Both the position numbers and the translations under genes were made by a program. The notes under the pieces were generated by a model that saw only the letters and a list, made by a program, of their open reading frames with translations, did not search any database and had not been told where the DNA came from. This document shows positions 2,595-19,501 of a stretch of DNA of 28,774 nt, in pieces. The stretch's first letter is position 1; each line of letters begins with the position of its first letter. Origin of the DNA: a virus. The DNA is taken from the IMG/VR virus record IMGVR_UViG_3300015165_000002, positions 1 to 28,774 of that record, one strand, 5' to 3'.

Positions 2595-2638
2595 GGTCGG
2601 TACTGACCATACTAACGCACCCTACGGGGCGGTGTCAC
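2595..2638 (-). promoter_or_regulatory. Promoter/leader module A
   Basis: On the minus strand GTGACA (2638-2633), an 18-base spacer and TAGTAT (2614-2609) form a sigma70/SigA-like promoter. TAGTATGG is followed by ACCGACC at 2601-2595, so the predicted transcript starts at or just before that motif, about 24 bases ahead of ATG 2578. The -35 lies inside the 3' end of the MazG-like gene. Seven related modules occur in the window. Confidence 0.75.
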
Positions 2639-2957
2639 GTTCAGCATCCAGCGCCGCCGCATGGCCACTGGTCGGATCTACCAGGATGGCAAGCTTGGCC
2701 CGAACCTCTCCGATCAGGTCAACCGCGGGGAACCACCGACCAAGCAGGACGAGCAGCGTTATGAGCACGTCTGCGCTCTCGCCTCCCACGTCGCCACCAC
2801 CCGTCGCCATGTTCCGGCCGAGTACGCCGTTGATGGCCCTGGCGACCTCGCCTGCTTCCTCACACGTCTTGAGGGCTACGTGCTCCATTCCGGCGTGAGG
2901 GAACCGCTGGCAGTGCCACAGCACGGCGGCGGTTTGTAGGTCGTCTAGTTCGCTCAC
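2622..2957 (-). CDS. MazG-like nucleotide pyrophosphohydrolase
   Basis: A 111-residue all-alpha protein starting at GTG 2957 in a GTGA overlap with the preceding gene. The motifs CEEAGEVARAINGV and GGESADVLITLLVLLGRW match the EExxE ... ExxD pattern with which MazG/dUTPase-like all-alpha NTP pyrophosphatases bind magnesium. Such enzymes hydrolyse (d)NTPs to monophosphates. Phage members are thought to adjust nucleotide pools or lower ppGpp-linked starvation signals. The length matches small single-domain MazG-like proteins. Its stop is followed within 10 bases by the -10 of promoter module A. Confidence 0.8.
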   Translation of the reverse strand: MSELDDLQTAAVLWHCQRFPHAGMEHVALKTCEEAGEVARAINGVLGRNMATGGGDVGGESADVLITLLVLLGRWFPAVDLIGEVRAKLAILVDPTSGHAAALDAERDTAP

Positions 2958-3871
2958 CGCTTCACCTTCTCACCACACTGTCCACATCCGTCTCCGAGTC
3001 GGCGACTGACGGGGTGGTGGCACTTGCCCTCGGGCTCGGGAGCGTGGCGCTTGTTCAGGCGCTGGATCGCTTCCGCCGTGCCACCACGGACGGTCGGAGG
3101 ACGCAGGCGGGGGAAACCAGGGGAGTTCCTGATCTCCCAGGCGCACTCGACCTTGACAGCGAAGTCCCGAACCTCTGTACCCTCCTCGGCGGACATGGCA
3201 GCTCCCAGCTCGGCCGGATCGTAGGACCGGAGCATGGCGAGGAACCGGGAGACGGCCATGCGCTCGGGGAGATTGCCCCACATCTCCTTCTCCTTGACCG
3301 CTGACTCCTCTCCGACCGTTCCGCCTCCTTCGGGAACCATCGTCTGAGGCTTGGCCCGAGGAGGCGAGGGGGTGCGCACGGGTGGAGCTGGGGGGCTCGC
3401 CTCCTCGGGGGCGTGGCTTCCGGTTTCGGCGCTCTCATCGCGAGTCACAGAACCGGAAGCGGTCGTGTCGATCGGCTCAAGTTCTCGGCGCCGGGCAGTC
3501 TGTCGCCGGGCCGCCTCACGCTGGGAGATCGGAGCCGAAGTGGGACGCGGTGTCCCGGACTGACCAGCACTTTCGCGCTCGGGGTTCGTCAATTCATGGT
3601 GATCGGCGCTCTCGACGGCGAGAGCGATTCGGCGGTTTCCTGTACGGACAGAGAAACCCCAGACGTCGAGGCAGTAGGACTCGAACGACGAGTGCCCGGC
3701 CCGGTACAGCCGGCGGTCGCGGATCTCCCGCAGAGCATCGCCGGTCTGTTCTCCCGCCGCCTTCTCGACCTTGCGGATCCTGGCTTCGAGCTGGCGTAGG
3801 TGCTTGGCCTCGGCAAGCGTCAGGCCCTCGGTGCCGTCGAGCCGGTGGGGTACTGGCGTCTGGTCGGCCAT
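2954..3871 (-). CDS. Putative DNA-binding protein with C-terminal zinc-binding tail
   Basis: A 305-residue protein. ATG 3871 is chosen because it overlaps the stop of the preceding gene (TAATG). The N-terminal region has LEARIRKVEK, ALREIRDRRLYR, SFESYCLDVWGFSVRTGNR and IALA. This pattern, in which an EIRDxxLYR helix is followed by SFExYCxxxWG and a helix-turn-helix-like RTGNRRI, is common in actinobacterial phage and mobile-element proteins and looks like a ParB/KorB-type DNA-binding helix. A long Pro/Ser/Arg-rich linker (about 110-200) follows, then a helical region and a C-terminal CHHP ... CGQC cluster that could bind zinc. A phage-encoded regulator is the best guess; the exact function is unknown. 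Confidence 0.7.
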   Translation of the reverse strand: MADQTPVPHRLDGTEGLTLAEAKHLRQLEARIRKVEKAAGEQTGDALREIRDRRLYRAGHSSFESYCLDVWGFSVRTGNRRIALAVESADHHELTNPERESAGQSGTPRPTSAPISQREAARRQTARRRELEPIDTTASGSVTRDESAETGSHAPEEASPPAPPVRTPSPPRAKPQTMVPEGGGTVGEESAVKEKEMWGNLPERMAVSRFLAMLRSYDPAELGAAMSAEEGTEVRDFAVKVECAWEIRNSPGFPRLRPPTVRGGTAEAIQRLNKRHAPEPEGKCHHPVSRRLGDGCGQCGEKVKR

Positions 3872-4230
3872 TACACGTACTCCTCGCTGCCCCAGGCGTG
3901 AGCACCTCGGGCACGCCAAGCAAACCGGTGCTTCGGCCACCACTGTTTAGGGTCGATCCCCAGGAACAGAGACGTAGGCGGCGGATCGTTCGGGACTACC
4001 TCGGGACCACGTAGACGCTCCCGCACTCTGCGGGCGATCTGCTCCAGCGACACGATCGAGGGATCGAAGAGCACCGATACGGTCACGGTGGCCTCTTTCA
4101 GGCCAGAACCGTAGGCCAACGACTTAGCGCCGAAGAATGCGTCGAACAGTTCGCTCGTCGTCATCCCGTCGCTGGTCGGCTTCGGGTAGGCCGCCTCGTA
4201 GATTCCGCCTCGGGATACTGTCTCTGCCAT
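3871..4230 (-). CDS. Hypothetical protein, 119 aa
   Basis: A soluble protein starting at ATG 4230, preceded by a GAGG ribosome site 5 bases upstream. It contains a predicted alpha/beta stretch (LKEATVTVSVLFDPSIVSL followed by EQIARRVRERLRG) and a Trp-rich tail (KQWWPKHRFAWRARG). I do not recognise the family. Its TAA stop overlaps the next ATG by one base (TAATG). The 68 bases upstream of it contain no gene, only a possible weak -10 (TAGGCT). Confidence 0.65.
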   Translation of the reverse strand: MAETVSRGGIYEAAYPKPTSDGMTTSELFDAFFGAKSLAYGSGLKEATVTVSVLFDPSIVSLEQIARRVRERLRGPEVVPNDPPPTSLFLGIDPKQWWPKHRFAWRARGAHAWGSEEYV

Positions 4231-4298
4231 CAGGACCTCGTTTCCTGGTCGAGCCCCGGCCGTTCGTCGCGGTGCGGGGCGATCTCTTTCCCGCCAGC

Positions 4299-4508
4299 CT
4301 ACCCGCCCTCAGGTGTCGACCTTCGGGCCACGATCCGGCGCACACCAGCGGCACTGAGGCCGGCCGCTTCGGCGATGGCTCGGTAGCTGGCGCCCTGGTC
4401 GTGCATCTGGCAAACCAGCCGATCCCGCCTTGCCGTCGCCCCTCGGGCCTGGCTGGCCCAGTGGGCAAGACCTCGGGCCGCGGAGGGGGACCACGTATCG
4501 GCGGTCAT
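4299..4508 (-). CDS. Small helix-turn-helix DNA-binding protein
   Basis: A 69-residue protein starting at ATG 4508 in an ATGA overlap with the leaderless gene. Its C-terminal half, QGASYRAIAEAAGLSAAGV followed by RRIVARR, is a clear helix-turn-helix of the sigma-region-4 or resolvase type, with AEAAGLSAAGVRRIV as the turn and recognition helix. The N-terminus (MTADTWSPSAARGLAHW) is probably a small extra helix. It resembles the HTH protein at 12374-12679, so the phage carries two related small HTH proteins. A regulatory role is inferred. Confidence 0.75.
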   Translation of the reverse strand: MTADTWSPSAARGLAHWASQARGATARRDRLVCQMHDQGASYRAIAEAAGLSAAGVRRIVARRSTPEGG

Positions 4509-4900
4509 ACCGCCACCTCCTGCCCGAGCAGGTGATCGGCACCGTCGAGGATGTCGGAGAGGACGATGGCTGCGTTGTTGGCGTAGGGCGAGCCACAGGT
4601 GGTGATGGTCCCGGCGTGCGATTCCAGCCACTCGATCCGCTCGCCGTGGCCCTGGGCGACCAGCTCGGCCCGGTGCGTGGCGCGACGAGCGTCCCGTGCA
4701 GCTACCCATGCCAACCGGTTCACTTCCCGCTCGACCGCTCCGGCAGCCCATCCGGTCGCCTTGGCGGCGCAACGTCGGCCCAGCTCAGCGATGGTGCCGT
4801 CGGTGTACCGGACGGTGAAGACCCGCCCGAGTTCCCGGCCGCATGCCTCGCACTGGCCCTGCGTGCTCGTGATTCCCGTCAGAGTTGCCGTGTTCGTCAT
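4505..4900 (-). CDS. Zinc-finger-like hypothetical protein from a leaderless promoter
   Basis: A 131-residue protein. ATG 4900 is preferred over GTG 4906 because the predicted transcription start coincides with the A of that ATG. The N-terminal region CEACGRELGRVF, then ELGRRCAAKATG, looks like a small zinc-binding fold of the kind seen in phage and plasmid proteins that recognise their own class of ribbon. The middle is rich in Arg/Ala helices (REVNRLAWVAARDARR), and the C-terminus (VLSDILDGADHLLG) is acidic. Family not recognised. It heads a chain that continues by ATGA coupling into the small HTH gene. Confidence 0.7.
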   Translation of the reverse strand: MTNTATLTGITSTQGQCEACGRELGRVFTVRYTDGTIAELGRRCAAKATGWAAGAVEREVNRLAWVAARDARRATHRAELVAQGHGERIEWLESHAGTITTCGSPYANNAAIVLSDILDGADHLLGQEVAV

Positions 4901-4903
4901 GTA

Positions 4904-4949
4904 CACATTGTACCCACTACCCCGCCAGGTTTCAACACAAAGTACCCAC
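4904..4949. repeat. Direct repeat CACAwwGTACCCAC flanking the promoter (possible operator)
   Basis: Two 14-base copies (12 of 14 identical) on the plus strand at 4904-4917 and 4936-4949, 32 bases apart, or about three helical turns. One overlaps the -10 and the other lies just upstream of the -35, as expected for an operator bound on one face of the helix. GTACCCAC recurs in a palindrome before the endolysin gene. Confidence 0.55.
4907..4935 (-). promoter_or_regulatory. Strong leaderless promoter (TTGAAA-N17-TACAAT)
   Basis: On the minus strand TTGAAA (4935-4930), exactly 17 bases, then TACAAT (4912-4907). This is the best sigma70/SigA match in the window. The base expected to be +1 is 4900, the A of ATG, so the mRNA should lack a 5' leader. 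Leaderless transcripts are common in actinobacteria. The -10 is embedded in GTGGGTACAAT. Confidence 0.8.
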
Positions 4950-4964
4950 CGACCCGAAGATTTC

Positions 4965-5630
4965 CTACTCCTCGACCACTTCGGCCACGTCGATGACCTC
5001 GCCTCCCGGCCCCAGTTCGGGGCGGTCCTCGCCGGCCTCGTCCCGAGCGGCTGCCCACTTGGCCATCAGGCCCTCTACCTGCAGCTCGACGGGGATGGGG
5101 CCACCACCGGGGCCGCTGTGCTCGTTGCGGGTCTTGGGCGCCCAGGCATCGAAACGGCGCTCTGCCACCCAGCGCAGGTTGGCCACGTCAGGCGGCCGGC
5201 GGATGGTCGTGACCTCCTCGGCGTAGATCGGCTCAGGGCGTCCGTCGGGGCCTTCCACGGTGCCGATGAGCTTGCGGGTCGTCCTCGTTTCGACCGATTC
5301 CGCCAGGCCAGCGGCCATCACGGAGCCGATCGTCCCGGTCTCGGCATGGCCCAATGCGCGGGCATACCGGTCCGAAAAACTGGCCAGGTAGCGATCCTTC
5401 TCCGTCAGCCTGTGACCCTTCGGGACCCGACCGTCGATCACCCGGCGCCCGTGGCGAAGGGAGGCGTACAGCGTCTCCTTGCTCACGCCTGCGGTAGCGG
5501 CGGCCGCTTCGGGGCGGTTGTTGCCCTCGATCAGGGCGATGATCCGATCGGCTACGTGGGGCACGTCGGGGCCGATGGCGAGGGGCCTACCTGACTTGCG
5601 CTTGGCCGGCGTCTGTTTCGTAGCTGGCAT
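4965..5630 (-). CDS. Probable terminase small subunit
   Basis: A 221-residue protein from ATG 5630. The N-terminus is basic (KQTPAKRKSGRPL), followed by a helix-turn-helix (AAAATAGVSKETLYASLRHG). The middle has the acidic/aromatic helix pattern of small terminases (RYLASFSDRYARALGHAE). Later come PPDVANLRWVAERRFDAW, close to the xWxAARWLERRxPxxW pattern usual there, and an acidic C-terminal tail (VIDVAEVVEE). Small terminases bind pac or cos DNA and load the large subunit. It is unusual that the large subunit starts about 4.3 kb and roughly ten genes downstream. No clear Shine-Dalgarno precedes the ATG, but TACCAT lies 7 bases upstream, so this gene might also be leaderless. An HTH regulator is the alternative. 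Confidence 0.65.
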   Translation of the reverse strand: MPATKQTPAKRKSGRPLAIGPDVPHVADRIIALIEGNNRPEAAAATAGVSKETLYASLRHGRRVIDGRVPKGHRLTEKDRYLASFSDRYARALGHAETGTIGSVMAAGLAESVETRTTRKLIGTVEGPDGRPEPIYAEEVTTIRRPPDVANLRWVAERRFDAWAPKTRNEHSGPGGGPIPVELQVEGLMAKWAAARDEAGEDRPELGPGGEVIDVAEVVEE

Positions 5631-5655
5631 GGCTTCGATGGTAGGCCAGGATGCG

Positions 5656-5820
5656 TTAGTGAGGGGGCAGGGCGGCTAGGCGTTGCTCCAACACCAGGCG
5701 CAGCATGGCAGCGATCAGGGCCGAGTCAGTGGCGCAGATCAGCGAACCGTCGGCGTTGATGATCGTGCTCGGGCCGGCGTGGCGGTCGCTTCGGTGCTCG
5801 CAGGGGATGTAGGTGCTCAC
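5656..5820 (-). CDS. Small hypothetical protein, 54 aa
   Basis: The GTG 5820 start overlaps the methyltransferase stop (GTGA). It begins VSTYIPCEHRSDRHAGPST and continues with INADGSLICATDSALIAAM and a Leu-rich helix ending LPPH. The two cysteines are isolated, so there is no obvious metal site. Coupling to the methyltransferase is the main support for it being a real gene. Function unknown. Confidence 0.6.
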   Translation of the reverse strand: MSTYIPCEHRSDRHAGPSTIINADGSLICATDSALIAAMLRLVLEQRLAALPPH

Positions 5821-8167: not shown

Positions 8168-8373
8168 GCCATCGGCCCCAAGTCGTGACCGACCGAGCGC
8201 ACGGCCAGCACATCGCCGGCCCCTTCGGAGGGGTACAGGACCCACTTGATGTCCAGGGTGGGGTTCAGGTCGGGGTCGCAGAGGTCGAGGCCCCAGGCGA
8301 ACTCGTCGTCTTCGTCGGGCCATTCGCACACGTCGGCGGCTTGGGTAGCGAGGAACAGCGCAGGAAGGCTCAC
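8164..8373 (-). CDS. Small acidic hypothetical protein, 69 aa
   Basis: Starts at GTG 8373 overlapping the WhiB-like stop (GTGA) and ends in a GTGA overlap with the helicase. It is strongly acidic and aromatic (CEWPDEDDEFAWGLDLCD, then LDIKWVLYPSEG), with no recognisable motif. The acidity suggests a DNA mimic or a protein-interaction partner, but that is speculation. Confidence 0.65.
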   Translation of the reverse strand: MSLPALFLATQAADVCEWPDEDDEFAWGLDLCDPDLNPTLDIKWVLYPSEGAGDVLAVRSVGHDLGPMA

Positions 8374-8657
8374 AGCCGACCCAATCCGCCGATGGGCAGA
8401 CGGGACCGGCGGAGCATCCGGGCCCGTTCGTCGGGGGTCGTGGCGCCGAAGATGCCGTGGGCCTCCTGGGCGTTGAGGGCGTAGCCGAGGCATTCGACCA
8501 GGCTCGGGCACTGGCGACAGATGGCCTTGGCCCGCTCCTCGCCTCGTGTGTCGCCTCGCTCGGGGAACCAGACACCGGGTGGGATGCCGCTACCGGGGCG
8601 GCAGAGGGCGGCGGATCGCCACTCCTCCTCGGCGTCGTAGATGGCCAGGGCGCTCAC
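8370..8657 (-). CDS. WhiB-like Fe-S transcription regulator
   Basis: A 95-residue protein from GTG 8657 (GTGA overlap). Four cysteines at about 19, 47, 50 and 56 form C-x27-CxxC-x5-C (AALCRPG ... AICRQCPSLVEC), the [4Fe-4S]-binding signature of Wbl proteins. They are followed by the glycine turn GIFGATTPDERARM and a basic C-terminus (LRRSRLPIGG) that contacts DNA. The first spacing is longer than usual. Wbl proteins are known from Actinobacteria and their phages and act with the host sigma factor region 4. Here it may redirect host or phage transcription, possibly from the shared promoter modules (inference). Confidence 0.9.
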   Translation of the reverse strand: MSALAIYDAEEEWRSAALCRPGSGIPPGVWFPERGDTRGEERAKAICRQCPSLVECLGYALNAQEAHGIFGATTPDERARMLRRSRLPIGGLGRL

Positions 8658-9073
8658 GGTGCGTCGGCCAGTTCCCGCAGCACGCCGGCATCCTCGCCAC
8701 AGCGGGCGCAGAGCTGGGCCGTGTAGCCCCGCTGGACCTCTCGCATGGCCACGTCGTCGTCCTGGGAGTCGCAGGCGATGCAGGCGGGGGCGTAGTCGCT
8801 GAGCAGGCGCCCGGAGTCGATCCGGTCGGCCAGTTCGGTAGTGGCGCTGACCGGGCCGTAGAAGTGACGATGCGCCCGCACGCAATCCACCACGACCTCC
8901 CACGTCTGGTCGCTGGGGGGGCGGGTACCGGCCAGCTCGGCGGTCAGCTTGCGGCCCTTGTCGTCCAAGGCGGCGGTGGTGGCGGCGTCGGCGCCGTGAG
9001 CGATGAGAACGGCGGCCATCTTCTCGGCCTTCGCCTGCCTGGCGGCCACCTTGTACCCGGACTGTGCGTGCAT
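8654..9073 (-). CDS. Hypothetical protein with paired CxxC motif
   Basis: A 139-residue protein and the first gene after promoter module B. ATG 9073 is chosen over longer starts because AAGGGAG lies 5 bases upstream. A basic, helical N-terminal half (YKVAARQAKAEKMAAVLIA) is followed by WEVVVDCVRAHRHFYG and then ACIACDS ... LCARCGED, two CxxC pairs likely to bind zinc. The family is not recognised. It is coupled by GTGA to the WhiB-like gene, so both are probably made together. Confidence 0.72.
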   Translation of the reverse strand: MHAQSGYKVAARQAKAEKMAAVLIAHGADAATTAALDDKGRKLTAELAGTRPPSDQTWEVVVDCVRAHRHFYGPVSATTELADRIDSGRLLSDYAPACIACDSQDDDVAMREVQRGYTAQLCARCGEDAGVLRELADAP

Positions 9074-9088
9074 CGGTGCTCCCTTCGT

Positions 9089-9130
9089 GGTCGGTAGTGC
9101 CATACTAATGCACTCACCGGCCGGGCGCAA
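9089..9130 (-). promoter_or_regulatory. Promoter/leader module B
   Basis: Minus-strand TTGCGC (9130-9125), a 17-base spacer and TAGTATGG with -10 TAGTAT at 9107-9102. ACCGACC at 9095-9089 is followed by an AAGGGAG ribosome site and ATG 9073. The -10, its 6-base gap to ACCGACC and the short leader match the other modules. Confidence 0.75.
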
Positions 9131-9226: not shown

Positions 9227-10819
9227 CTAGTGGACCGATTCCACCTCGTTCACGCAACCGTCGCAGACGACAGCCTCCACGCTGGCAATGTCCCGACGAG
9301 CCACGGTCGAATCCTGGCGCCCACAGAGGACGCATTCGGCTGTCGTCTCGGGCGTTTCGGGCTTCGCCTCTTGCGGCTTGGCGAACAGCCCGACCAGGCT
9401 GTGGTCCAGCTCCCGCCGGGCACGGGTAAGGGCCACGTACAGCAGCCGCAGCTCGGGGTCGGCGGGGATCTCGTCGGCCGATCCGGGGAAATCCCCGGCG
9501 ATTTGCACCGAGTCCCACTCCCGGCCCTTGGCTTTGTGGGCTGTAGAAACCACCACGTCGGCGCCGGCCTCGGGAATCATCCGGTCGAGAGCCTGGATGA
9601 TCATGGCTACGCCGAACTCCTCAACGAGCTTGACCATCAGCCGCAACTCGCCTCCCTGCTCGTCGTGGTCCACGTAGTCCAACACCTCACCCCATGTATC
9701 GAAACATGCCAGCTCCGGGTGATAGGTGGGCTGGCCGTTTATCAGCTCGCCGGCCGCCTTGGCGAAGGCGACGACCTCTGCCCCGCCGCCGACTAGGTGG
9801 ACGGACTGCCCCGCCTTCTGGCGAGTCAGCACCTCACCCACGGCGATGGCGTTGGTGCGGCACAAGATCACGTCGGGGGTAGGGACCGGGCCGACGACCG
9901 AAGCGATGTTTTCGTTGCCTTTGAGTACCAGGGGAGATTCGAGGTACCCAAGCACCTGATTGGCGACAGCGGCGACCTCGGGGCCAAAGCGGAACGACTG
10001 GGAGAGGTGGGTCCGGTTGCCCTCGAAGCTGGCCAGAGCGTTGACAGCGCCGGTCCACTCGTAGATGGCCTGCTGGGAGTCACCGACCCACACCCGCTGG
10101 GCGTGCGTCTGAGCATCCACGATGGCGGCAAGCACAGGGTTGGCATCCTGTGCCTCGTCGAACAGGATGAAGTCGGCCCCGATAGTCGGGTTCGTGAGCT
10201 GCCACAGCTTCAGGTAGTGCTCGTGCTTGTAGGGCAACATTCCGTCCAGTCGCACAAGATCGGCCCAACCGCGAACGAGAGCGGGAGCGAGGATCGTTGC
10301 CAGCTCCCGGTTGTTGGCCCATCCTCGGGAACCGTCAGGGTGCGGGAGGTCGATTCCCTCGACGTAGGGAACGTGCATGGCGGTCGGCGCCGGGTCGGCG
10401 GTCTGGCAGAACCGGGTGATGGCTCGCATTGCCAGGCCTGCGAGGAACCCCGGCGACATCACTTTGCGGTCTTGGCCGAAGGTGACCACGAACGGGTCGA
10501 TACGGAGCAGGCGGGCTATCTCCATCGACCTCATTCGGCGAGACCCCCGGAGACGGGCGCCGTACTTGTGGCCAACGGCCCGATAGGCCAGCGAGTGAGC
10601 GGTCGAACAGGTGACGTTGCGGGGCATCTTGGCGGATGCCTCCACGACGATGGCCTTGTTGAATGCGATGTACTGGCCTGTGCGACCAGTGGACTCAGCG
10701 ATCAGACACAGGGTCGAAGTCTTGCCCGTGCCCGCTCCTGCCTCGATGACCAGATCGTCTCCGGTGGCGAACAGGCGTAGGGCCTCAGACTGCTCGGGGG
10801 TGGGGGGGAAGTTGGCCAT
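9227..10819 (-). CDS. SF1 (UvrD/Rep-like) DNA helicase with C-terminal zinc-binding tail
   Basis: A 530-residue helicase from ATG 10819, with GAGGAG 6 bases upstream. The motifs are: Q-motif FPPTPEQSEAL, Walker A AGAGTGKT (27-34), Ia-like YIAFNKAIVVEA, motif II FILFDEAQD (217-225), motif III VWVGDSQQAIYEWTGA (243-258), motif IV-like LSQSFRFG, motif V-like STAHKAKGREWD and motif VI LLYVALTRAR. It belongs to the UvrD/Rep/PcrA group and unwinds DNA 3' to 5' with ATP, probably in replication or recombination. The C-terminus adds a CVLCG ... CDGC pair that likely holds zinc and is not usual in UvrD. It is the only gene between promoter module C and the hairpins downstream. Confidence 0.93.
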   Translation of the reverse strand: MANFPPTPEQSEALRLFATGDDLVIEAGAGTGKTSTLCLIAESTGRTGQYIAFNKAIVVEASAKMPRNVTCSTAHSLAYRAVGHKYGARLRGSRRMRSMEIARLLRIDPFVVTFGQDRKVMSPGFLAGLAMRAITRFCQTADPAPTAMHVPYVEGIDLPHPDGSRGWANNRELATILAPALVRGWADLVRLDGMLPYKHEHYLKLWQLTNPTIGADFILFDEAQDANPVLAAIVDAQTHAQRVWVGDSQQAIYEWTGAVNALASFEGNRTHLSQSFRFGPEVAAVANQVLGYLESPLVLKGNENIASVVGPVPTPDVILCRTNAIAVGEVLTRQKAGQSVHLVGGGAEVVAFAKAAGELINGQPTYHPELACFDTWGEVLDYVDHDEQGGELRLMVKLVEEFGVAMIIQALDRMIPEAGADVVVSTAHKAKGREWDSVQIAGDFPGSADEIPADPELRLLYVALTRARRELDHSLVGLFAKPQEAKPETPETTAECVLCGRQDSTVARRDIASVEAVVCDGCVNEVESVH

Positions 10820-10835: not shown

Positions 10836-10878
10836 GGTCGGCAACCTCCATACTAATGCACTAGGGCGGACTTGTCTA
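10836..10878 (-). promoter_or_regulatory. Promoter/leader module C
   Basis: TAGACA (10878-10873, 5 of 6 to the consensus), a 17-base spacer and TAGTAT (10855-10850) followed by GG. The leader motif here is GCCGACC (10842-10836), one base different from the other copies. A GAGGAG site and ATG 10819 of the SF1 helicase follow. Confidence 0.78.
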
Positions 10879-11847: not shown

Positions 11848-12377
11848 GGTTCGTCTGTGACCAGAGAAGCTTCCAGCTCCTCCAGCCGTGCAGCCGGAAC
11901 AAGCTCGGAAACTGTGGGAATCCCCCGGAGAAAGGCGTGGGCCTCGTCGGTTTCGAGAGCGCCGATGGCGAGCGATTGGAGTAGGTCCACCTCCTCCCGG
12001 TCGAGTCGCAGTTTGGCCGCCTTCACTTTGGCATCCAGGTCGCTCAGGGCTGCCCGGCGCAGTTCAGATCGGCCGTCATCGTCCCACCGGAAGCCCGGAT
12101 AGCCGATGCCGAACCTGCCCATCCCCACCACCTCCCGACGCTCGCTCAACTCGGCGTCAACCTGACGCTGCACATCCTCCAATAACCGGCGAGCCATGCG
12201 TTCGACCTCGGACCGCTGAAAGTCCCGTGTCTCGTGCTTCTCCACGATGGCGTTGTCAATGGTGGCGGCCAACTCCCGCTGGCGAACCTCCATTTCAGAA
12301 CGGAGCACCTTGAATCGCTTTGCTACCAGCACCTTCAGTTCTCGCCGCTCGCCAGGGGTGATCGCTGACGTGCTCAC
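11844..12377 (-). CDS. Helical hypothetical protein, 177 aa
   Basis: Starts at GTG 12377 (GTGA overlap). It is almost entirely helical and charged, with coiled-coil potential in RSEMEVRQRELAATIDNAI, VERMARRLLEDVQRQVDAEL and LDAKVKAAKLRLDREEVDL. A short Gly/aromatic insert (FGIGYPGFRWDDDGR) interrupts the helices. No enzyme motif is visible. Similar helical proteins occur in actinophage early regions, but I cannot assign a role. Confidence 0.7.
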   Translation of the reverse strand: MSTSAITPGERRELKVLVAKRFKVLRSEMEVRQRELAATIDNAIVEKHETRDFQRSEVERMARRLLEDVQRQVDAELSERREVVGMGRFGIGYPGFRWDDDGRSELRRAALSDLDAKVKAAKLRLDREEVDLLQSLAIGALETDEAHAFLRGIPTVSELVPAARLEELEASLVTDEP

Positions 12378-12679
12378 GGCGCCACCGCCCGGGCCGCTGC
12401 CTGACGCCCGGCCACGCCCCTACGAGCCCGAGCAGCTTCCACGGCATCGATTGCTGACAGGTTGCCTGCCTTGGCCGCTCGTCGGACGGCACCGAGCACC
12501 GCCGCATCGGAGACGCCAGCAGCCTGGCCCACGGCGGCGTAGCTGGCACCGGCAATGATGGCCCGGCAGTAGGCGTCGATGCAGGTGGCAGGGATGCCGT
12601 GGCCGGGGCCTCGGTAGGACTCGGTGGGGCAGGCCTCGGCTATCTCTGCCAGGACACGGGCCAGGGGATCAGTGGTCAT
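12374..12679 (-). CDS. Small helix-turn-helix protein (paralogue-like)
   Basis: A 101-residue protein from ATG 12679 (ATGA overlap). The central SYAAVGQAAGVSDAAV followed by LGAVRRAAKAG is a helix-turn-helix resembling that at 4299-4508 (SYRAIAEAAGLSAAGV). An N-terminal helix (LARVLAEIAEACPTESY) and an Ala/Arg-rich C-terminal helix (EAARARRGVAGRQAAARA) flank it. A DNA-binding regulator is likely. Alternatively it could be a small-terminase-like HTH protein, since those share the fold. Confidence 0.68.
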   Translation of the reverse strand: MTTDPLARVLAEIAEACPTESYRGPGHGIPATCIDAYCRAIIAGASYAAVGQAAGVSDAAVLGAVRRAAKAGNLSAIDAVEAARARRGVAGRQAAARAVAP

Positions 12680-13095
12680 TCCGGGTTGTCGGCCTCTGCC
12701 GCTTCGGCCTTGGCTGCCTCCTGCTCGGCGAACAGGGAGCGGCGGTTGGCGGCCTCGTCCAGGCGCTTCTGGTGGGCGTCGAGGGCCTTCTTGACCACGG
12801 CCGGATCCACGATGGTGACCAATCCAGCCCGCAGGACGTGCAGGCGATCGACGCCGTCCTGCTCCCACTGGGACTTGCCGGGCACGAAGGCGATGGAGTC
12901 CACGAACGCCTCGATGACCAGGGCGACCCGCTGGCCCCGGCCCAACTCGACGGGCTCGACCTCGGCCAGCTTCGACAGGCCATCCCCGAGCCCCTTTACC
13001 CGAAGCTTGGCACCCCAGATCGGGTCATCTTCGAAGTAGCCGAGGGCCGGTTCGTTCTCAGGGGCGTTGTCAGGCACAGCAGCGATTCGAACCAT
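12676..13095 (-). CDS. Hypothetical early protein, 139 aa
   Basis: The first gene after promoter module D. ATG 13095 is chosen because AGGAGG lies 6 bases upstream. The N-terminal two thirds look like a compact beta-rich domain (LGYFEDDPIWGAKLRVKG and VALVIEAFVDSIAFVPG). The C-terminus is a charged helix (KKALDAHQKRLDEAANRR) ending in Ala/Glu. The pattern is reminiscent of conserved actinophage proteins of unknown function. Four further genes follow by 4-base overlaps. Confidence 0.72.
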   Translation of the reverse strand: MVRIAAVPDNAPENEPALGYFEDDPIWGAKLRVKGLGDGLSKLAEVEPVELGRGQRVALVIEAFVDSIAFVPGKSQWEQDGVDRLHVLRAGLVTIVDPAVVKKALDAHQKRLDEAANRRSLFAEQEAAKAEAAEADNPE

Positions 13096-13113: not shown

Positions 13114-13139
13114 GGTCGGTATCCATCGGACCCATACTA
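13114..13139 (-). promoter_or_regulatory. Promoter/leader module D
   Basis: TAGTATGG with -10 TAGTAT at 13139-13134. The leader motif ACCGACC at 13120-13114 lies 13 bases away instead of 6-7, and a second CGACC follows directly. The TAG that opens the -10 is also the stop codon of the RuvC-like gene. No convincing -35 is seen. Confidence 0.6.
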
Positions 13140-13652
13140 ACTCACCGCCGAGGGACCCGGCGGGGTGAGAACCGGCCAGGTCACCGATGCGAGCGCCGAC
13201 CGGTTGAGCGCCGGCATGGCCATCAGCGGCTCGCCGTAGTAGTCGAGCGCAGCGGCCCTCAACCACCAGGCGTCCACCTGGTTGTCGTCGGCCACGTCAA
13301 GCCCGGCCCGCTTGTAGAGCGCCATTCGCATGTCCGGCTTGGTGGCGTTGCCCCTGCCGGTGGCGAACTTCTTCAAGGTGCCGGGAGGGATCAGGACATA
13401 GGGGATGCCCGCCTCGTAGAGCGCCGTCTTGACGACGCCCCCCAACTCCCCGATGGCCGTGGCCTGGTTGGGTCGGCCGAAGGCGTAGCCCTCGATGGCG
13501 ACAACCTGAGCGGCTTGGCACAGGTACAGAACCTCGTCCCGCAGCTTTGCCAGTCGGGCGGGCCCGGTCACCTTCGGCCTCAGCGTCAGTGTCCCGGAAC
13601 CGTCAGCCACGCCTGTAGCGGCCAGCGACAGATCCAGGCCGGCGACTCTCAC
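13137..13652 (-). CDS. RuvC-like Holliday junction resolvase
   Basis: A 171-residue RNase H-fold nuclease from GTG 13652, 3 bases after the previous stop. Acidic catalytic residues are in place: D7 in VAGLDLSLAATG, E54 in VVAIEGYAFG, and D122/D123/D127 in DVADDNQVDAWWL. A conserved helix (GELGGVVKTALYEAG) and IPPGTLKKFATGRGNATK also fit the phage RuvC family. RuvC enzymes cut four-way junctions, and phage forms resolve branched DNA before packaging. The length is normal. Its TAG stop forms part of the -10 of promoter module D. Confidence 0.9.
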   Translation of the reverse strand: MRVAGLDLSLAATGVADGSGTLTLRPKVTGPARLAKLRDEVLYLCQAAQVVAIEGYAFGRPNQATAIGELGGVVKTALYEAGIPYVLIPPGTLKKFATGRGNATKPDMRMALYKRAGLDVADDNQVDAWWLRAAALDYYGEPLMAMPALNRSALASVTWPVLTPPGPSAVS

Positions 13653-13655
13653 CGC

Positions 13656-13877: not shown

Positions 13878-14125
13878 CCGATCCAGAAGTTCATGGCCTC
13901 GGCGGCACCACGGCGCCGAACTCGGTCCATCTCGGCAAGGCGCTCGACTAGTTCTCGACGCTCCTGCGGCGTGAAGGTGGGGATCGTGGGGCAGTCCGAG
14001 TAGTGGGTGATGCCGGTCGAAAGGACCGGATACCCCGGGCCTGGGTTGCGCTCGATGGGCGGCGTCCAGTTGCACTGCGGGCATGGGATGTACGTCCCGT
14101 CCTTTTGCCTGCCGGTGTCGTTCAC
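13874..14125 (-). CDS. Small zinc-ribbon-like protein, 83 aa
   Basis: Starts at GTG 14125 (GTGA overlap). CPQCNWTPP, later HYSDCP, gives a CxxC plus single Cys/His set compatible with one zinc. The C-terminal half is helical and charged (QERRELVERLAEMDRVRRR). Family not recognised; coupled on both sides. Confidence 0.66.
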   Translation of the reverse strand: MNDTGRQKDGTYIPCPQCNWTPPIERNPGPGYPVLSTGITHYSDCPTIPTFTPQERRELVERLAEMDRVRRRGAAEAMNFWIG

Positions 14126-14253
14126 CACTGGCTCCCGTTGTCGTCCCAGTCCCACTCGGGCGGAGGACGGTGCGAGGCCACGGCGCACCACAGCGTGAGC
14201 AGGCCAGCGCCAAGCGCCAACCACGCCCCGGCGAGCCACAGGAGGGAGGTCAT
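14122..14253 (-). CDS. Very small membrane protein, 43 aa
   Basis: The ATG 14253 start overlaps the preceding stop (ATGA). A hydrophobic helix from residue 3 (SLLWLAGAWLALGAGLLTL) is followed by a short acidic, Trp-rich tail (PPEWDWDDNGSQW). It ends in a GTGA overlap with the next gene. Size and topology resemble small phage membrane peptides, but I cannot assign a role. Confidence 0.65.
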   Translation of the reverse strand: MTSLLWLAGAWLALGAGLLTLWCAVASHRPPPEWDWDDNGSQW

Positions 14254-14405
14254 CGCTCATCGCTAGGGGGCTTCGGCGTGTAGATATAACCCCGGGCAGC
14301 GTGACGGGCACGCCGCTGGAAGTCGTCGAGGGCGTCCCACTCAGCCTGGCGGGCCTTGGCCTCGGCCTGGCGCTTCGGTTTGCGGTCGGTGCGGGTTCGG
14401 GTCAC
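14250..14405 (-). CDS. Small basic protein, 51 aa
   Basis: Starts at GTG 14405 (GTGA overlap) and ends in an ATGA overlap. It is rich in Arg/Lys, with a helix KRQAEAKARQAEWDALDDF and a tail GYIYTPKPP. It could bind nucleic acid, but no motif is diagnostic. Confidence 0.62.
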   Translation of the reverse strand: MTRTRTDRKPKRQAEAKARQAEWDALDDFQRRARHAARGYIYTPKPPSDER

Positions 14406-14731
14406 CGCTTGATCCCCCGCACGACGGAGATGGCGAACCGCAGGCCGGGCACGGATGCCACCTGCCCGTGGTCAGCGTCGCCGTCGTCGAGCGCGGCCAC
14501 GAGGTCACCGAGGTGCATCACCACGTCTGCCTTCGCAGCGGCGTAGCCCTCGTCGTAGCCCGCCCGGCGTAGCCCGGTGACGTGGGCGTCGTAGTACGCC
14601 TGGCGCAGGTCCATACGCACGGTGCGGTTGCTACTGCCCTGCGGGGGGGGCTCGTCTTCGCCGTCGATGTTGGGCGGCTCAGGCAGGGGCTGGCGGGACA
14701 GGTGCTCGTCGGCTTGGTCGATGGCTGGCAC
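14402..14731 (-). CDS. Hypothetical protein, 109 aa
   Basis: The first gene after promoter module E. GTG 14731 is chosen because GAGGAGG lies 5 bases upstream. A longer in-frame start at ATG 14758 falls inside the -10 and so is not transcribed from that promoter. The N-terminal third is acidic and Pro-rich. The rest is a helical region with AYYDAHVTGLRRAGYDEGY followed by AAKADVVMHL, a repeated-tyrosine helix pattern common in small actinophage proteins of unknown function. Confidence 0.7.
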   Translation of the reverse strand: MPAIDQADEHLSRQPLPEPPNIDGEDEPPPQGSSNRTVRMDLRQAYYDAHVTGLRRAGYDEGYAAAKADVVMHLGDLVAALDDGDADHGQVASVPGLRFAISVVRGIKR

Positions 14732-14743
14732 GGCTACCTCCTC

Positions 14744-14762
14744 GGTCGGTAGACCCATACTA
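14744..14762 (-). promoter_or_regulatory. Promoter/leader module E
   Basis: TAGTATGG with -10 TAGTAT at 14762-14757, six bases, then ACCGACC (14750-14744), GAGGAGG and GTG 14731. The TAG of the -10 is also the stop codon of the upstream gene, as in module D. A weak -35 candidate, TGGCGT, lies at 14785-14780. Confidence 0.7.
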
Positions 14763-14951
14763 ACGCATACCAGCGGCAGACGCCATAGCTTCGGGGTCGG
14801 TCAGCCAACGGATCCCAGCCTCGATCAGATCGGCCTCGTCCGCCGCCATCGATGGTGGCACCGGCCTTCCGGTTTCGGCGTAGTAGCGCAGGTTGTTGAC
14901 CGCCGCCTGGAGTCGGAACAGGGCCTCGGTGCGGAGCGGGTCATCGGGCAT
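14760..14951 (-). CDS. Small helical protein, 63 aa
   Basis: Starts at ATG 14951 with AAAGGA 6 bases upstream, overlapping the end of the DnaB-like gene by 11 bases. It is helical (EALFRLQAAVNNLRYYAE, then ADEADLIEAGIRWLTDPEA). It is the last gene of the replication transcript before module E. Its position right after the helicase could indicate a helicase accessory factor, but the sequence gives no direct sign. Confidence 0.68.
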   Translation of the reverse strand: MPDDPLRTEALFRLQAAVNNLRYYAETGRPVPPSMAADEADLIEAGIRWLTDPEAMASAAGMR

Positions 14952-16215: not shown

Positions 16216-16937
16216 CCGTCAACAATGTCGTAGTCGGGCCGGAACTCCTCGGGGAGCTGGCCAGCCACGAACGACACGGAAGCCGCCTCCGGCTGGTAGT
16301 CGGTTCCCTTCCGAGCAGGCTTGGCCCAATCTCGGGCGTTGCCGATCCAGGTCCGCCATGCCGCCCGCCAGTCGGTGTACCGCTTCCCGTTCGCCAGAGC
16401 GTGATCCTTGAACTTCTCAGTCTCAGCCGAGAGGTTCACCGCTGGTGCCTTCTCGTTGGCCCATGCCCTCATCGCTTCATCGACTTCAAAGTCGTCAGGT
16501 AGGGAGCGAGAGCGACCAGGCTTGCCCGTTGAAAGACCTTCCGTTGTATAAACCGTTGGCGACGTTTCGTAGGTAGGGCGAGTAGCCGCTTTCGGGTCAG
16601 GAGTAGCCGCTTTCTGGTCCGAAAGTAGCCGCTTTCCGTCCAAAAGAGGCTCACTAGTAGCCGCTTCTTGGCGGCCCATGAGCACTCGGTAGACGGTCGC
16701 CCGGCCCCGTCCCTTGCCCTCCTCCTCGATGGCCACCCATCCCTCATCGACCAGTCGCCGGACGATCTTGGTCACCATGGCCCGGCTGTAGAGCGACCCT
16801 TCGACCATCGCCTCCTTGCCGGGATGGGCGTGCTCGCCGTCACGGTTGGCGGCGTCGGCGATGGTGATGAGAACGGCTCGCATCGCTCGGACCTTCGGGC
16901 CGTGTTGCAGCACCCAACCGGTGCACTGGCCGCTCAT
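16212..16937 (-). CDS. Winged-helix replication initiator (lambda O-like organisation)
   Basis: A 241-residue protein from ATG 16937 (ATGA overlap). Residues 1-85 form a winged helix like those of phage replication initiators (RAVLITIADAANRDGEHAH, SRAMVTKIVRRLVDEGWVA, GRATVYRVL). Residues about 90-120 are a linker that contains the DNA iterons. The C-terminal region (DEAMRAWANEKAP, then KFKDHALANGKRYTDWRAA and WRTWIGNARDWA) matches the conserved C-terminal helices of phage and plasmid initiator proteins. It probably binds the iterons in its own gene and recruits the DnaB-like ATPase encoded next. Confidence 0.85.
   Translation of the reverse strand: MSGQCTGWVLQHGPKVRAMRAVLITIADAANRDGEHAHPGKEAMVEGSLYSRAMVTKIVRRLVDEGWVAIEEEGKGRGRATVYRVLMGRQEAATSEPLLDGKRLLSDQKAATPDPKAATRPTYETSPTVYTTEGLSTGKPGRSRSLPDDFEVDEAMRAWANEKAPAVNLSAETEKFKDHALANGKRYTDWRAAWRTWIGNARDWAKPARKGTDYQPEAASVSFVAGQLPEEFRPDYDIVDG
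16581..16668. repeat. Four iterons, AGTAGCCGCTTTC: probable replication origin
   Basis: Copies begin at 16581, 16602, 16624 and 16656 on the plus strand; the last ends CTTCT. The steps are 21, 22 and 32 bases, close to 2, 2 and 3 helical turns. Because 22 and 32 are not multiples of three, the repeat is read in two different protein frames, so selection is on the DNA. Locally AT-richer DNA containing TTGTATAAACC lies beside it at about 16528-16560. The arrangement parallels the lambda origin inside gene O. Confidence 0.75.
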
Positions 16938-17128
16938 CGCTCGCCCTCCCGGGCCCAGCGGCTACGGCTGTCGGTCGGTGAGCCAAGCCTGGCCTCGGGA
17001 CCGCAGGCAACGCAGATGGTCCGGGACTCACCAGGGAACCGGTAGCCAACGTGGAGCCCGCAGGGCAGGTCCACTCGTTCGGGGATGCGCCGCTCCCCCT
17101 TCGCCTTGGCGTTCGTGGTACTTTTCAA
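16934..17128 (-). CDS. Small Cys-containing protein, 64 aa, TTG start
   Basis: The chosen start is TTG 17128, with AAAGGA 8 bases upstream. It lies 12 bases after the six-codon leader ORF. The sequence is basic (KSTTNAKAKGERRIPERV), then LPCGLHVGYRFPGESRTIC and VACGPEARLG. One Cys plus a CxxC suggests a degenerate zinc ribbon. It ends in an ATGA overlap with the replication initiator, so it opens the replication operon. Function unknown. Confidence 0.62.
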   Translation of the reverse strand: MKSTTNAKAKGERRIPERVDLPCGLHVGYRFPGESRTICVACGPEARLGSPTDSRSRWAREGER

Positions 17129-17140
17129 GGGCTGATCCTT

Positions 17141-17161
17141 TCAGTGGGTTGTTGCTCTCAT
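17141..17161 (-). CDS. Six-codon leader ORF (MRATTH) behind promoter module H
   Basis: ATG 17161 is preceded by AGGAGG with 7-base spacing, the strongest ribosome site nearby. The frame ends at TGA after MRATTH. It holds the first-gene position of the promoter module. The next start (TTG 17128) lies 12 bases downstream, which suits termination-reinitiation. It may tune expression of the replication operon; no direct proof of translation exists. Confidence 0.4.
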   Translation of the reverse strand: MRATTH

Positions 17162-17176
17162 TCGGTTGCCTCCTGT

Positions 17177-17195
17177 GGTCGGTGGCGAGAGCGTA
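17177..17195 (-). promoter_or_regulatory. Promoter/leader module H (variant)
   Basis: The -10 is TACGCT (17195-17190) instead of TAGTAT, with six bases to ACCGACC (17183-17177), then AGGAGG and ATG 17161. Spacing and leader match the other modules. The region where a -35 would lie falls inside the hairpin at 17211-17241. Confidence 0.5.
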
Positions 17196-17210
17196 GCCCG
17201 ACGGACACGC

Positions 17211-17241
17211 CGAAGGGGGACCCGCAGAGGGTCCCCCTTCG
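17211..17241 (-). terminator. Perfect 13-bp hairpin ahead of the replication operon
   Basis: CGAAGGGGGACCC and GGGTCCCCCTTCG form a perfect stem (17211-17223, 17229-17241) around a 5-base loop. No U-tract follows on the minus strand; the plus strand has only TTTGT. It lies 20 bases after the stop of the 40-aa gene and just upstream of module H, so it probably ends the recombination-gene transcript. Confidence 0.7.
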
Positions 17242-17261
17242 TTTGTCTGGGCCAGGAATCG

Positions 17262-17384
17262 CTAGTCCGTCTCGGCGTCGCGTTCGGCCTCGACCAGCAC
17301 CACGCCCGCCGTCTCGGGCCGTGGCTTGCACACCAGGCAGGCCACCCACGGCAGGGCGATCCGGTGGTAGTGGGGGCATCTCAC
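17262..17384 (-). CDS. Very small zinc-binding-type protein, 40 aa
   Basis: Starts at GTG 17384, about 10 bases after the preceding stop. CPHYHRIALPW followed by ACLVC gives a CxxxH ... CxxC set within 20 residues, well suited to one zinc. The rest is an acidic tail (VEAERDAETD). No ribosome site is visible, so translation probably depends on coupling. A longer ORF in another frame across this stretch lacks any recognisable features. Confidence 0.5.
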   Translation of the reverse strand: MRCPHYHRIALPWVACLVCKPRPETAGVVLVEAERDAETD

Positions 17385-17394
17385 AGGACGGACA

Positions 17395-17634
17395 TCAGAA
17401 CGGCTCCTCGTCGGGCGGTGGCGGGGGAGGTAGGTCTGTGCTCGCCGGGCAACCACCGGCCACCCGTACCGCTCGTGCAAGGTCAGCCATACGGTACGAC
17501 GTGGCCAGGGTGGCCAGGACTTGCGCCCGGGCGACCAGTAGCGCCGGATCGGTCTGATCGAACGACAGGCCCTCCAACCGCACCAGAATCGTGACCGCGC
17601 CCACTTCGGCGTCGTAAGCAAGGTCCCGGCTCAC
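17395..17634 (-). CDS. Hypothetical protein, 79 aa
   Basis: The GTG 17634 start overlaps the ERF-like stop (GTGA). It is probably a small alpha+beta domain (VGAVTILVRLEGLSF, then ARAQVLATLATSYRMADLA), ending in a proline run before DEEPF. The tight coupling suggests a recombination accessory protein, such as a single-strand-DNA partner of the annealing protein, but no motif proves it. Confidence 0.62.
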   Translation of the reverse strand: MSRDLAYDAEVGAVTILVRLEGLSFDQTDPALLVARAQVLATLATSYRMADLARAVRVAGGCPASTDLPPPPPPDEEPF

Positions 17635-18584
17635 GGCGCTGGCGTGTCAGCGTCAGGGAAGGGCACATGGCAGCGGTGGTACATCTTGCCGTCCTCGCCC
17701 ACGGCCGCTCGCATGGCCATCGGGGGTTTCTCGTGGTCGGGCAGGATCGGCGCCTCGCACTGCGAGCACAGGTCCTCGTCCTCGCTCTGTGCTCCGATCA
17801 GATCACCGATAGTCCCAGGATCGCCGGATACGGCCTCAGACGGGCCAGGGGCGGCCTCGGGGGCGTCGTGGGTCCCTTTCCCTGTCTCGGGGGGCAGAGG
17901 GCCAGAATCGGCGCTCTGTGGCTCGGCTTTCTCGGCGTCGAGCAGCAGCGCCGCCAGCCGCCCCAGTTCGTCGGCCGGCATGGGCCAGCCATAGGCGGCT
18001 TTGAACTCCCGGCCGGTCAGTCGCACCGGGTGGTTCTCGGGCAGGGCGGCGAGGCGGGCAGCGACGGCGACGTGGGCGTCGTGCTCGGCTGTGGCGCTGG
18101 CCCATCCCTCGGTGCGGGCGGGGGGAGGCGTCGAGCGCCGCTCGGTGTCGGGTACCTCGTGGCGCTCGGAGTCCGAGCCGCTGTCACCGATGCAGAAGGT
18201 TTGGCAGAGCATCGACTTGAATGCCGAGGTCATCGCCTTCTGAATCGACTTGTCGCCCATGTCGGTTCCCTGGCCCCAACACTCGGCCGTGAGCGTGTCG
18301 CCGGCCGGGCCGTGGAAGGTCCACTGCACCCGCAGGTCGACGACGAACTGAACCTTGTTGCCCGAGACGCTGCGCTCGGAGTCCCGCCGCTCCATGACTT
18401 GCGGCAGGCAGAACACGCCATGGGCGGCCAGGGCGGGCTTCAGGGCGCCGAGAATGCCCTCGATGCCCCGGAAGCTGTAGCCGCCCATGTTGGCCGGGGC
18501 CTTCTCGGTCTTGCCCACGTCGGCCACGTCGGCCAGGACTCGACCCATGAGCACAGGCAGGGTGGGGGGGGATTCGTCGGTCAT
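17631..18584 (-). CDS. ERF-family single-strand annealing recombination protein
   Basis: A 317-residue protein from ATG 18584 (ATGA overlap). Residues 20-135 match the ERF core: ANMGGYSFRGIEGILGALKP, then LAAHGVFCLPQV, and ECWGQGTDMGDKSIQKAMT followed by AFKSMLCQTFCI. ERF proteins anneal complementary single strands, promoting recombination and circularisation of phage genomes. The middle carries a small domain (HPVRLTGREFKAAYGWPMP) and a Pro/Gly/Glu-rich linker. The C-terminus has CSQC and HRCH, likely a zinc site and not part of the usual ERF core. The RuvC-like and SF1 helicase genes complete the recombination set. Confidence 0.88.
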   Translation of the reverse strand: MTDESPPTLPVLMGRVLADVADVGKTEKAPANMGGYSFRGIEGILGALKPALAAHGVFCLPQVMERRDSERSVSGNKVQFVVDLRVQWTFHGPAGDTLTAECWGQGTDMGDKSIQKAMTSAFKSMLCQTFCIGDSGSDSERHEVPDTERRSTPPPARTEGWASATAEHDAHVAVAARLAALPENHPVRLTGREFKAAYGWPMPADELGRLAALLLDAEKAEPQSADSGPLPPETGKGTHDAPEAAPGPSEAVSGDPGTIGDLIGAQSEDEDLCSQCEAPILPDHEKPPMAMRAAVGEDGKMYHRCHVPFPDADTPAP

Positions 18585-18766
18585 CGGGCACCCACTCGGA
18601 TCAGATCCTCGTCAGCAACGGACGAGCACTCACAGCCGCTCACTTCCTCGCCGCAGGACAGACAGCGGGGCTCCGGCGCCCGCTCGTCGTCGAAGTCCCG
18701 GTCGTCGAATCCGTGGTCCCTGGCGTCGAGCCAGGCGTCTCGCATATCTCGGTGCAGGTCGAGCAT
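18581..18766 (-). CDS. Small Cys-cluster protein, 61 aa
   Basis: The first gene after promoter module F. ATG 18766 has AGGAGG 6 bases upstream. The N-terminal half is Asp/Arg-rich (RDAWLDARDHGFDDRDF), then CLSCGEEVSGCECSS, a CxxC ... CxC metal-binding pattern. It ends in an ATGA overlap with the ERF-like gene. Function unknown. Confidence 0.7.
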   Translation of the reverse strand: MLDLHRDMRDAWLDARDHGFDDRDFDDERAPEPRCLSCGEEVSGCECSSVADEDLIRVGAR

Positions 18767-18783
18767 GGGAGCCTCCTGTAGGT

Positions 18784-18802
18784 GGTCGGTCCTCCCATAC
18801 TA
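18784..18802 (-). promoter_or_regulatory. Promoter/leader module F
   Basis: TAGTATGG with -10 TAGTAT at 18802-18797, six bases, then ACCGACC (18790-18784), AGGAGG and ATG 18766. A possible -35, TTGAGT, lies at 18827-18822 with a 19-base spacer. Confidence 0.7.
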
Positions 18803-18941
18803 ACGCATACCTAAGACAGGAACTCAACCGGGCCGGGGCCAACCTTCAGGACGGAACATCGCAAACGCCTCTGTTGACGCCGAAGCGCAGGCAGCCCATG
18901 CGGAGGAAAGGTTTCTCCGTGGCCCGGTCGAGAGCTTGGGG
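18803..18941. other. Short intergenic stretch with a weak hairpin
   Basis: This is the longest gap between genes (with module F, about 175 bases). I see no convincing coding. A weak inverted repeat at 18901-18919 (CGGAG ... CTCCG arms with an inner AAA/TTT) could end the transcript of the gene before it. The remainder has no recognised motif. Confidence 0.4.
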
Positions 18942-19463
18942 TCAATCCCGAGCGGGGCGGATGACCAGCGTGGGCAAGCGCCGATGGACGTGGACTCCCT
19001 CAACAGGGTCACCCTCGCCGGTGATGAGACGGCCACTCTCTACGTCAGCGTGACCCTCAGCCGTCAGGGCCTCGATGACGTGGGACGAAACCCTCGACTC
19101 CGTGGACGTGGACAGGAGCTGGAGGGTTTCCCTGATGCGCTCGAAGGCGTTGGAGTCGACGTGCTTGCGCGGGACGACGAACACCAGCTCCACGTCATCG
19201 GGGTAGCGGTCGGCGCACCAGTCGGCGTAGGCGGTCATGTCCGAGATGGTCACGCCCGGCTCCCCACCTTGGAGCAGCGCCGTCCCCATGCCCTTGACCC
19301 GGTTCGTCGGCAGGGCGCCGGTGGCCTCGTACTGCGCCCGCAGGATGGCGTCGATGTCGGGCCGTATCTCAGCCTTGGCCGCTTTGGCCGCCTTCTCGTC
19401 GGCGTCCCACTCTCGATAGGCGGCGAGCAGGTCGGGGAGCTTGGGGCGGTCGGGGTCGGGCAC
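18942..19463 (-). CDS. Hypothetical early protein, 173 aa
   Basis: The first gene after the late region. GTG 19463 follows AGGAGG by 7 bases and promoter module G by about 19. The N-terminus is a charged helix (KLPDLLAAYREWDADEKAA, then AEIRPDIDAILRAQYEATG), as in nuclease-inhibitor and Gam-like proteins, but the match is loose. The rest is mixed (DWCADRYPDDVELVFVVPR, then FERIRETLQLLSTSTES). It is a single-gene unit before module F. Position suggests an immediate-early protein; family not recognised. Confidence 0.72.
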   Translation of the reverse strand: MPDPDRPKLPDLLAAYREWDADEKAAKAAKAEIRPDIDAILRAQYEATGALPTNRVKGMGTALLQGGEPGVTISDMTAYADWCADRYPDDVELVFVVPRKHVDSNAFERIRETLQLLSTSTESRVSSHVIEALTAEGHADVESGRLITGEGDPVEGVHVHRRLPTLVIRPARD

Positions 19464-19481
19464 GGTGCTACCTCCTGAGTC

Positions 19482-19501
19482 GGTCGGTAGCTCCCATACT
19501 A
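19482..19501 (-). promoter_or_regulatory. Promoter/leader module G
   Basis: TAGTATGG with -10 TAGTAT at 19501-19496, seven bases, then ACCGACC (19488-19482), AGGAGG and GTG 19463. It lies about 20 bases after the pectate-lyase-like gene and so marks the switch from late to early genes. No clear -35 or terminator is present. Confidence 0.7.

Follow-up and report, generated by a model that had tools for sequence, protein, structure and literature searches.

Promoter-like modules of an extended -10 block and an ACCGACC leader head replication and recombination operons in an uncultured, probably actinobacterial phage

The IMG/VR record IMGVR_UViG_3300015165_000002 is a 28,774-base (28.8-kb) fragment of an uncultured, probably actinobacterial phage, and the whole of it (positions 1 to 28,774) is the window analysed here. 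Leftward (minus-strand) gene groups for replication and recombination carry the repeated modules described below, while tail and lysis genes lie at 20-28 kb; a scan of the window with TGNNTTAGTATGG found no module in front of the genes of this latter region. Judging from their gene content, the operons headed by modules would be expressed early. These operons, and two genes for candidate regulatory proteins located in them, are the following.

Operon A, minus strand: gene 2270-2578; headed by module A
Operon B, minus strand: 8654-9073, WhiB, SNF2-like helicase and methyltransferase; headed by module B
Operon C, minus strand: UvrD-like helicase, 9227-10819; headed by module C
Operon D, minus strand: 12676-13095, HTH-like protein and HNH endonuclease; headed by module D
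Operon E, minus strand: 14402-14731 through RuvC-like resolvase (13137-13652); headed by module E
Operon F, minus strand: 18581-18766 and ERF recombinase 17631-18584; headed by module F
Operon G, minus strand: gene 18942-19463; headed by module G
Operon H, minus strand: replication initiator and DnaB-like helicase; headed by the variant module H
8370..8657, minus strand: gene of a WhiB-like protein (PF02467, E = 7.8e-18; four Cys), a candidate trans-factor
12374..12679, minus strand: second gene in operon D, for a 101-aa protein containing an HTH-like stretch, a candidate regulator only

The first gene in operon A is directly followed by a 63-aa ORF of Gly-Tyr-Asp repeats (GYGDGYGYGDG; 2100-2291, minus strand). 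A pectate-lyase/beta-helix protein and a collagen-like tail fibre (19522-20505 and 20744-21271, minus strand) are encoded in the interval from the lysis genes to module G.

Each module combines a -10 element with a leader, positioned as follows.

2607..2619, minus strand: module A, -10 block TGCGTTAGTATGG (exact match); -35 GTGACA 18 nt upstream
2595..2601, minus strand: module A, leader ACCGACC, predicted mRNA 5' end (leader scans)
9100..9112, minus strand: module B, -10 block TGCATTAGTATGG (exact match)
9089..9095, minus strand: module B, leader ACCGACC (leader and start-site scans)
10848..10860, minus strand: module C, -10 block TGCATTAGTATGG (exact match); -35 TAGACA 17 nt upstream
10836..10842, minus strand: module C, leader GCCGACC, in front of the UvrD-like helicase (leader scans)
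13132..13144, minus strand: module D, -10 block TGAGTTAGTATGG (exact match); its TAG ends the RuvC-like gene 13137-13652
13114..13120, minus strand: module D, shifted leader ACCGACC (13 nt from the -10), sharing bases with a second CCGACC that adjoins the ribosome site
14755..14767, minus strand: module E, -10 block TGCGTTAGTATGG (exact match); its TAG ends the upstream ORF
14744..14750, minus strand: module E, leader ACCGACC (leader and start-site scans)
17190..17195, minus strand: module H, variant -10 TACGCT (TAnnnT-leader scan)
17177..17183, minus strand: module H, leader ACCGACC in the same register (leader and start-site scans)
18795..18807, minus strand: module F, -10 block TGCGTTAGTATGG (exact match)
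18784..18790, minus strand: module F, leader ACCGACC (leader and start-site scans)
19494..19506, minus strand: module G, -10 block TGGGTTAGTATGG (exact match)
19482..19488, minus strand: module G, leader ACCGACC (leader and start-site scans)

The sequence TGNNTTAGTATGG is exact in all seven modules A-G, always on the minus strand and at leftward gene junctions, and occurs nowhere else in the window, where the scan returned one non-module site with two mismatches. Its shorter core, TAGTATGG, is present in eight copies, all on the minus strand, versus 0.05 expected. Seven of them belong to the modules (2607, 9100, 10848, 13132, 14755, 18795 and 19494), and the eighth (7979) lies inside the coding sequence of the SNF2-like helicase, lacks TGNNT as well as the leader, and serves as an internal control with both extensions missing. 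In modules D and E, the preceding ORF stops at the TAG of TAGTATGG. An earlier note on this DNA had placed modules A-G and H correctly within 2 nt, motif and genes being on the minus strand. Its count of seven copies holds for the gene-junction modules and missed the non-module one, and its report of TGC(A/G)T in five copies was right about a conserved upstream part and too narrow about its extent, as the TGNNTTAGTATGG block is larger and found in 7/7.

A TG upstream of TAnnnT, as in SigA-type extended -10 promoters, is found in every one of the modules A-G (TGNNT-TAGTAT), with the TG lying 2 nt farther from the hexamer than in the canonical TGn. As a set, the modules do not have the SigA arrangement with a TTGACA-like -35 at 16-18 nt: 5/6 positions match only in A, with GTGACA at 18 nt, and in C, with TAGACA at 17 nt, while the others match in 1-3/6, the same as random positions. 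This agrees with the earlier note for A and C; module B, to which it ascribed a partial box, is at background. Alignment columns revealed no general conservation across the modules upstream of -17. The window's best match to a canonical SigA promoter, TTGAAA-17-TACAAT (4907-4935, minus strand), is without a module; an ATG (4900) lies six nt after its -10, which predicts a leaderless mRNA for gene 4505-4900.

Downstream of the hexamer, ACCGACC starts after 6 nt in B, E and F and after 7 nt in A and G. Module C has GCCGACC at 7 nt, module D has ACCGACC at 13 nt, and module H (TACGCT-N6-ACCGACC) keeps the leader in the same register with a different -10. On the gene strand, TAnnnT-N5-8-RCCGACC matches seven sites, all of the modules except D (one site on the other strand), and modules A-H account for every gene-strand NCCGACC with a ribosome site and a start codon after it. 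When the tails of A-G were compared for a shared 7-mer, with at most one mismatch and an offset of ±1, the best one covered six of the seven; the random maximum in 2000 draws was four. ACCGACC by itself is only mildly enriched in the window (20 versus 8.8 expected), so that its position is what counts. From the leader start to the start codon there are 19-25 nt in A-G, and the distance from leader to GGAG varies (2-7 nt). Since the distance to the -10 is kept at seven of the eight sites and that to GGAG is variable, the leader appears to be tied to the predicted transcript start. These results agree with most of what the earlier note had said of the leader: its spacing (6-7 nt in 7/8, 13 in D), GCCGACC in C, the TACGCT variant H and a start codon within about 25 bases, while the TGNNTTAGTATGG and RCCGACC scans support its claim of a conserved leader block beyond the -10 and the ribosome site. 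An RNA element in the sense of a structured RNA, which it had also suggested, found no support: the module leaders fold no better than shuffled sequences (z-scores from -0.8 to +1.6), match no known family in an Rfam search, and expose the ribosome site no more than random leaders do. A tRNA was rejected as well.

The spacers between the two blocks (TCAGT, CACT, AGGTT, GTCCGATGGAT, GTCT, GAGG and GAGCT) are unconserved and vary in length (4/5/11). As the region upstream of -17 is unconserved too, this indicates two separately maintained blocks and argues against recent copying. Recent duplicative spread of a single module, as a mobile promoter whose copies would be identical without selection, might account for the highly identical cores; however, spacers and flanks are without similarity, and we consider this already disfavoured explanation highly improbable.

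Two further observations concern the surroundings of module H. A GC-rich 13-bp hairpin just upstream of it (17211-17241), without a T-run on the gene strand, probably ends the ERF operon. Past the ribosome site of H, a short ORF of six codons (MRATTH stop; 17141-17161, minus strand) could encode a leader peptide, and it is followed by a second ribosome site and then the TTG start of 16934-17128.

The most plausible explanation, to which we would assign a probability of about 0.6, is that the modules represent an extended -10 promoter class heading the replication and recombination operons, with mRNAs starting from the A of ACCGACC, a phage-specified reading of the promoter and the leader as a second signal. 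Modules A-G would form one class (TGNNT-TAGTAT-GG) with a mostly dispensable -35 at the heads of the leftward operons, and a common promoter at these places implies that the operons could be switched as one regulon. With initiation by RNA polymerase at the A of ACCGACC, the mRNAs would share their 5' end and have leaders of 19-25 nt; as far as sequence alone can tell, the position of the leader is consistent with a start 6-8 nt after the hexamer, as for SigA-type promoters. Identity at positions hardly read by SigA, together with blocks separated by a variable spacer, suggests that the promoter block is read by a phage-specified factor or by a host RNA polymerase that the phage has modified. 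The leader would then be a second signal at the transcript start, acting as initially transcribed DNA or as the 5' RNA end, and module H would retain it with an ordinary TAnnnT -10. Its lock to the -10 leans towards a signal at the level of initiation. Module D, whose leader is 6-7 nt out of register, counts against this reading, as does the small number of helicase loci with detectable repeated modules, described below. The leader might also do nothing more than favour initiation or translation.

Host SigA could read the modules, and it is possible, if rather unlikely, that they are plain host SigA promoters with a strong extended -10, followed by a generic A/C-rich, ribosome-site-proximal leader without a specific reader, as in many actinophages. 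Indeed, TAnnnT with the TG and the GG discriminator fits SigA, ACCGA-type leaders likewise precede ribosome sites in phages of clusters EC and EI, whose -10s differ, and module H has another -10. On the other hand, the 7/7 identity extends to -10 positions at which SigA is tolerant, the leader is locked to the -10 and not to the ribosome site, and random leaders leave that site equally accessible.

The modules are specific to this lineage in the collections searched. None was found in 297 actinomycete genomes; INPHARED yielded no near relative of the window and no exact module at the near-identity level. Motif scans of IMG/VR gave 17 single scattered matches, none of them repeated; in further scans the matches listed were again single and scattered, and among all of these no other phage had repeated TAGTATGG modules. 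A search of IMG/VR for close relatives with the DnaB-like protein found no contig, and Gordonia phage Dardanus, which has a similar DnaB, showed no such repeat. A half-module match to Escherichia K1-5-like phages (21/23 nt, E = 3) was judged to be due to chance.

When 91 loci with the UvrD-like helicase were screened de novo, detectable repeated modules were present at only 3-4 of about 90. G001 has four exact copies of GTATCCTGATACTTGCAATGGAG-N-CAGGAGG, one of them before the homologous helicase; G002 has ACCGCGGTATGGTT with CACCCAAGGAG, one variant copy preceding the homologous helicase; G003 (L072) combines TGATATGATTAC with a separate CCAGTTGAG box, which stands alone at some starts; and in L081 TGACAACACC is associated with starts and lacks a promoter. 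G001, G002 and G003 carry repeated modules of their own, of other sequence, equivalent position and like layout, and more distant phages have different -10 modules, some with ACCGA leaders. In G002 (L123-L125), the ACCGCGGTAT modules contain the palindrome ATACCGCGGTAT, and copies are readable in both orientations, which is operator-like. The L081 element, TGACAACACC(ACC), lies before AGGAGG at 137, 4871, 6210, 6856, 7830 and two more places, its TGA being possibly the stop of the preceding gene.

Module H, and those sites in relatives that have the leader alone, point rather to a signal at the RNA level. The leader could be a start-associated sequence for translation or mRNA fate, recognised through a phage or host RNA-binding factor. 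At H it persists without the TAGTATGG promoter, in L072/G003 (CCAGTTGAG) and L081 (TGACAACACC) leader boxes occur near the ribosome site without a -10, and D tolerates a change of spacing. Yet the leaders of the window lie at a fixed distance from the -10, not from the ribosome site, and are without structure, which makes this possibility an unlikely one. It is also conceivable, though we hold it improbable, that the replication-gene mRNAs carry ACCGACC as a common 7-nt tag at their 5' ends. The transcription start would set this tag, and a factor made or modified by the phage would recognise it, either in the RNA or in the DNA transcribed first, without dependence on the promoter; related phages would have tags of their own. 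If this were true, actinophages would carry lineage-specific 5' leader codes.

A separate problem is which protein might act at these sites. The WhiB-like activator proposed in the earlier note has its gene in operon B; however, a WhiB7-type site is missing, and none of the other module-bearing phages tested encodes a WhiB. WhiB7 uses an AT-rich stretch just upstream of the -35 (PMC3905903), and no such motif is present in the modules (AT 0.20-0.37 versus a window mean of 0.33). These two negative results leave WhiB a candidate at most. T4 AsiA provides a comparison for a factor which disturbs -35 recognition and favours -35-independent extended -10 promoters, and a phage WhiB disturbing -35 recognition would favour such promoters in much the same way. 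Wbl proteins do bind SigA region 4 (PMC6282962, PMC3905903). The protein encoded at 12374-12679 gave, in a single comparison, a short 28-aa HTH match to EC gp86 (the EC 'sigma factor'), and it matched neither a Pfam family nor EI gp81. No match to sigma-70 region 4 (PF08281) was found in the window. One might also regard the two blocks as an operator, at which a phage repressor or the WhiB-like protein would shut the promoters off, as the site overlaps the -10 and +1 and operon B contains the WhiB-like gene. Nevertheless, the site is asymmetric, its spacing varies (4/5/11), the window scan detected no copies away from promoters, the AT-rich WhiB7-type site is absent, and neither a repressor nor an integrase was recognised in the 28.8-kb fragment; we find such an operator decidedly unlikely.

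Repeated intergenic motifs have already been catalogued in several actinophage clusters, and the earlier comparison with such cluster-specific repeats was well founded, the closest being the EC and EI repeats and the ESAS and SAS of cluster K. What the window set adds is a motif split into two blocks, the extended -10 and the transcript-start leader, each varying on its own. ACCGA-type leaders occur also in unrelated cultured Microbacterium phages (EC, EI) and are there open to direct testing.

Microbacterium cluster EC has an 18-bp motif, TAGaCTATaGGTgTaAgC, in 12 copies (PMC7302621, PMC9224216), which, like the window modules, is asymmetric, occurs in one orientation in short intergenic gaps 21-30 bp before starts, contains a -10-like core and in many copies precedes non-structural genes. 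ACCGA is present at 9/10 EC module starts versus 10/78 other starts (p = 1.4e-6), an association not found in the passages of these papers that were consulted. The EC motif differs from the window modules in its sequence, in a conserved TTAGA box that most copies show near the -35 distance, in a greater distance between the -10 and ACCGA, and in having copies also among structural genes. Microbacterium phage Quhwah (L118) has EC modules with ACCGA leaders, most of them with the TTAGA box near the -35 distance. For cluster EI, 30-bp repeats in five copies are described (PMC7302621). The EI modules, GTATAGAGTAGGCGTTAGCCAAACACCGACC before starts, consist of a promoter-like block and an ACCGACC leader and contain CACCGACC; they differ from those of the window in having another -10, a longer contiguous repeat and a leader off the predicted +1. 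The window modules do not share the EC or EI consensus, although they too are intergenic, in one orientation and about 20-30 bp before starts.

Cluster K phages, among which TM4 encodes WhiB, likewise have a repeated SigA-like promoter (ESAS) and a conserved start-associated sequence (SAS) at non-structural genes, without a known reader (PMC3203893, PMC11373665). The 13-bp SAS, GGGATAGGAGCCC, overlaps the ribosome site, whereas the leader of the window is not this sequence, lies upstream of that site and is locked to the -10. The ESAS holds 17-bp imperfect inverted repeats, which the window modules lack, their upstream columns being unconserved. Cluster A stoperators and cluster O 17-bp palindromes are cluster-specific repeated sites as well, but they lie away from promoters or are palindromic (PMC4351075), while the window copies are promoter-bound and asymmetric. 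Repeats of this kind are already known from actinobacterial phages, and the modules of the window are an example specific to their lineage.
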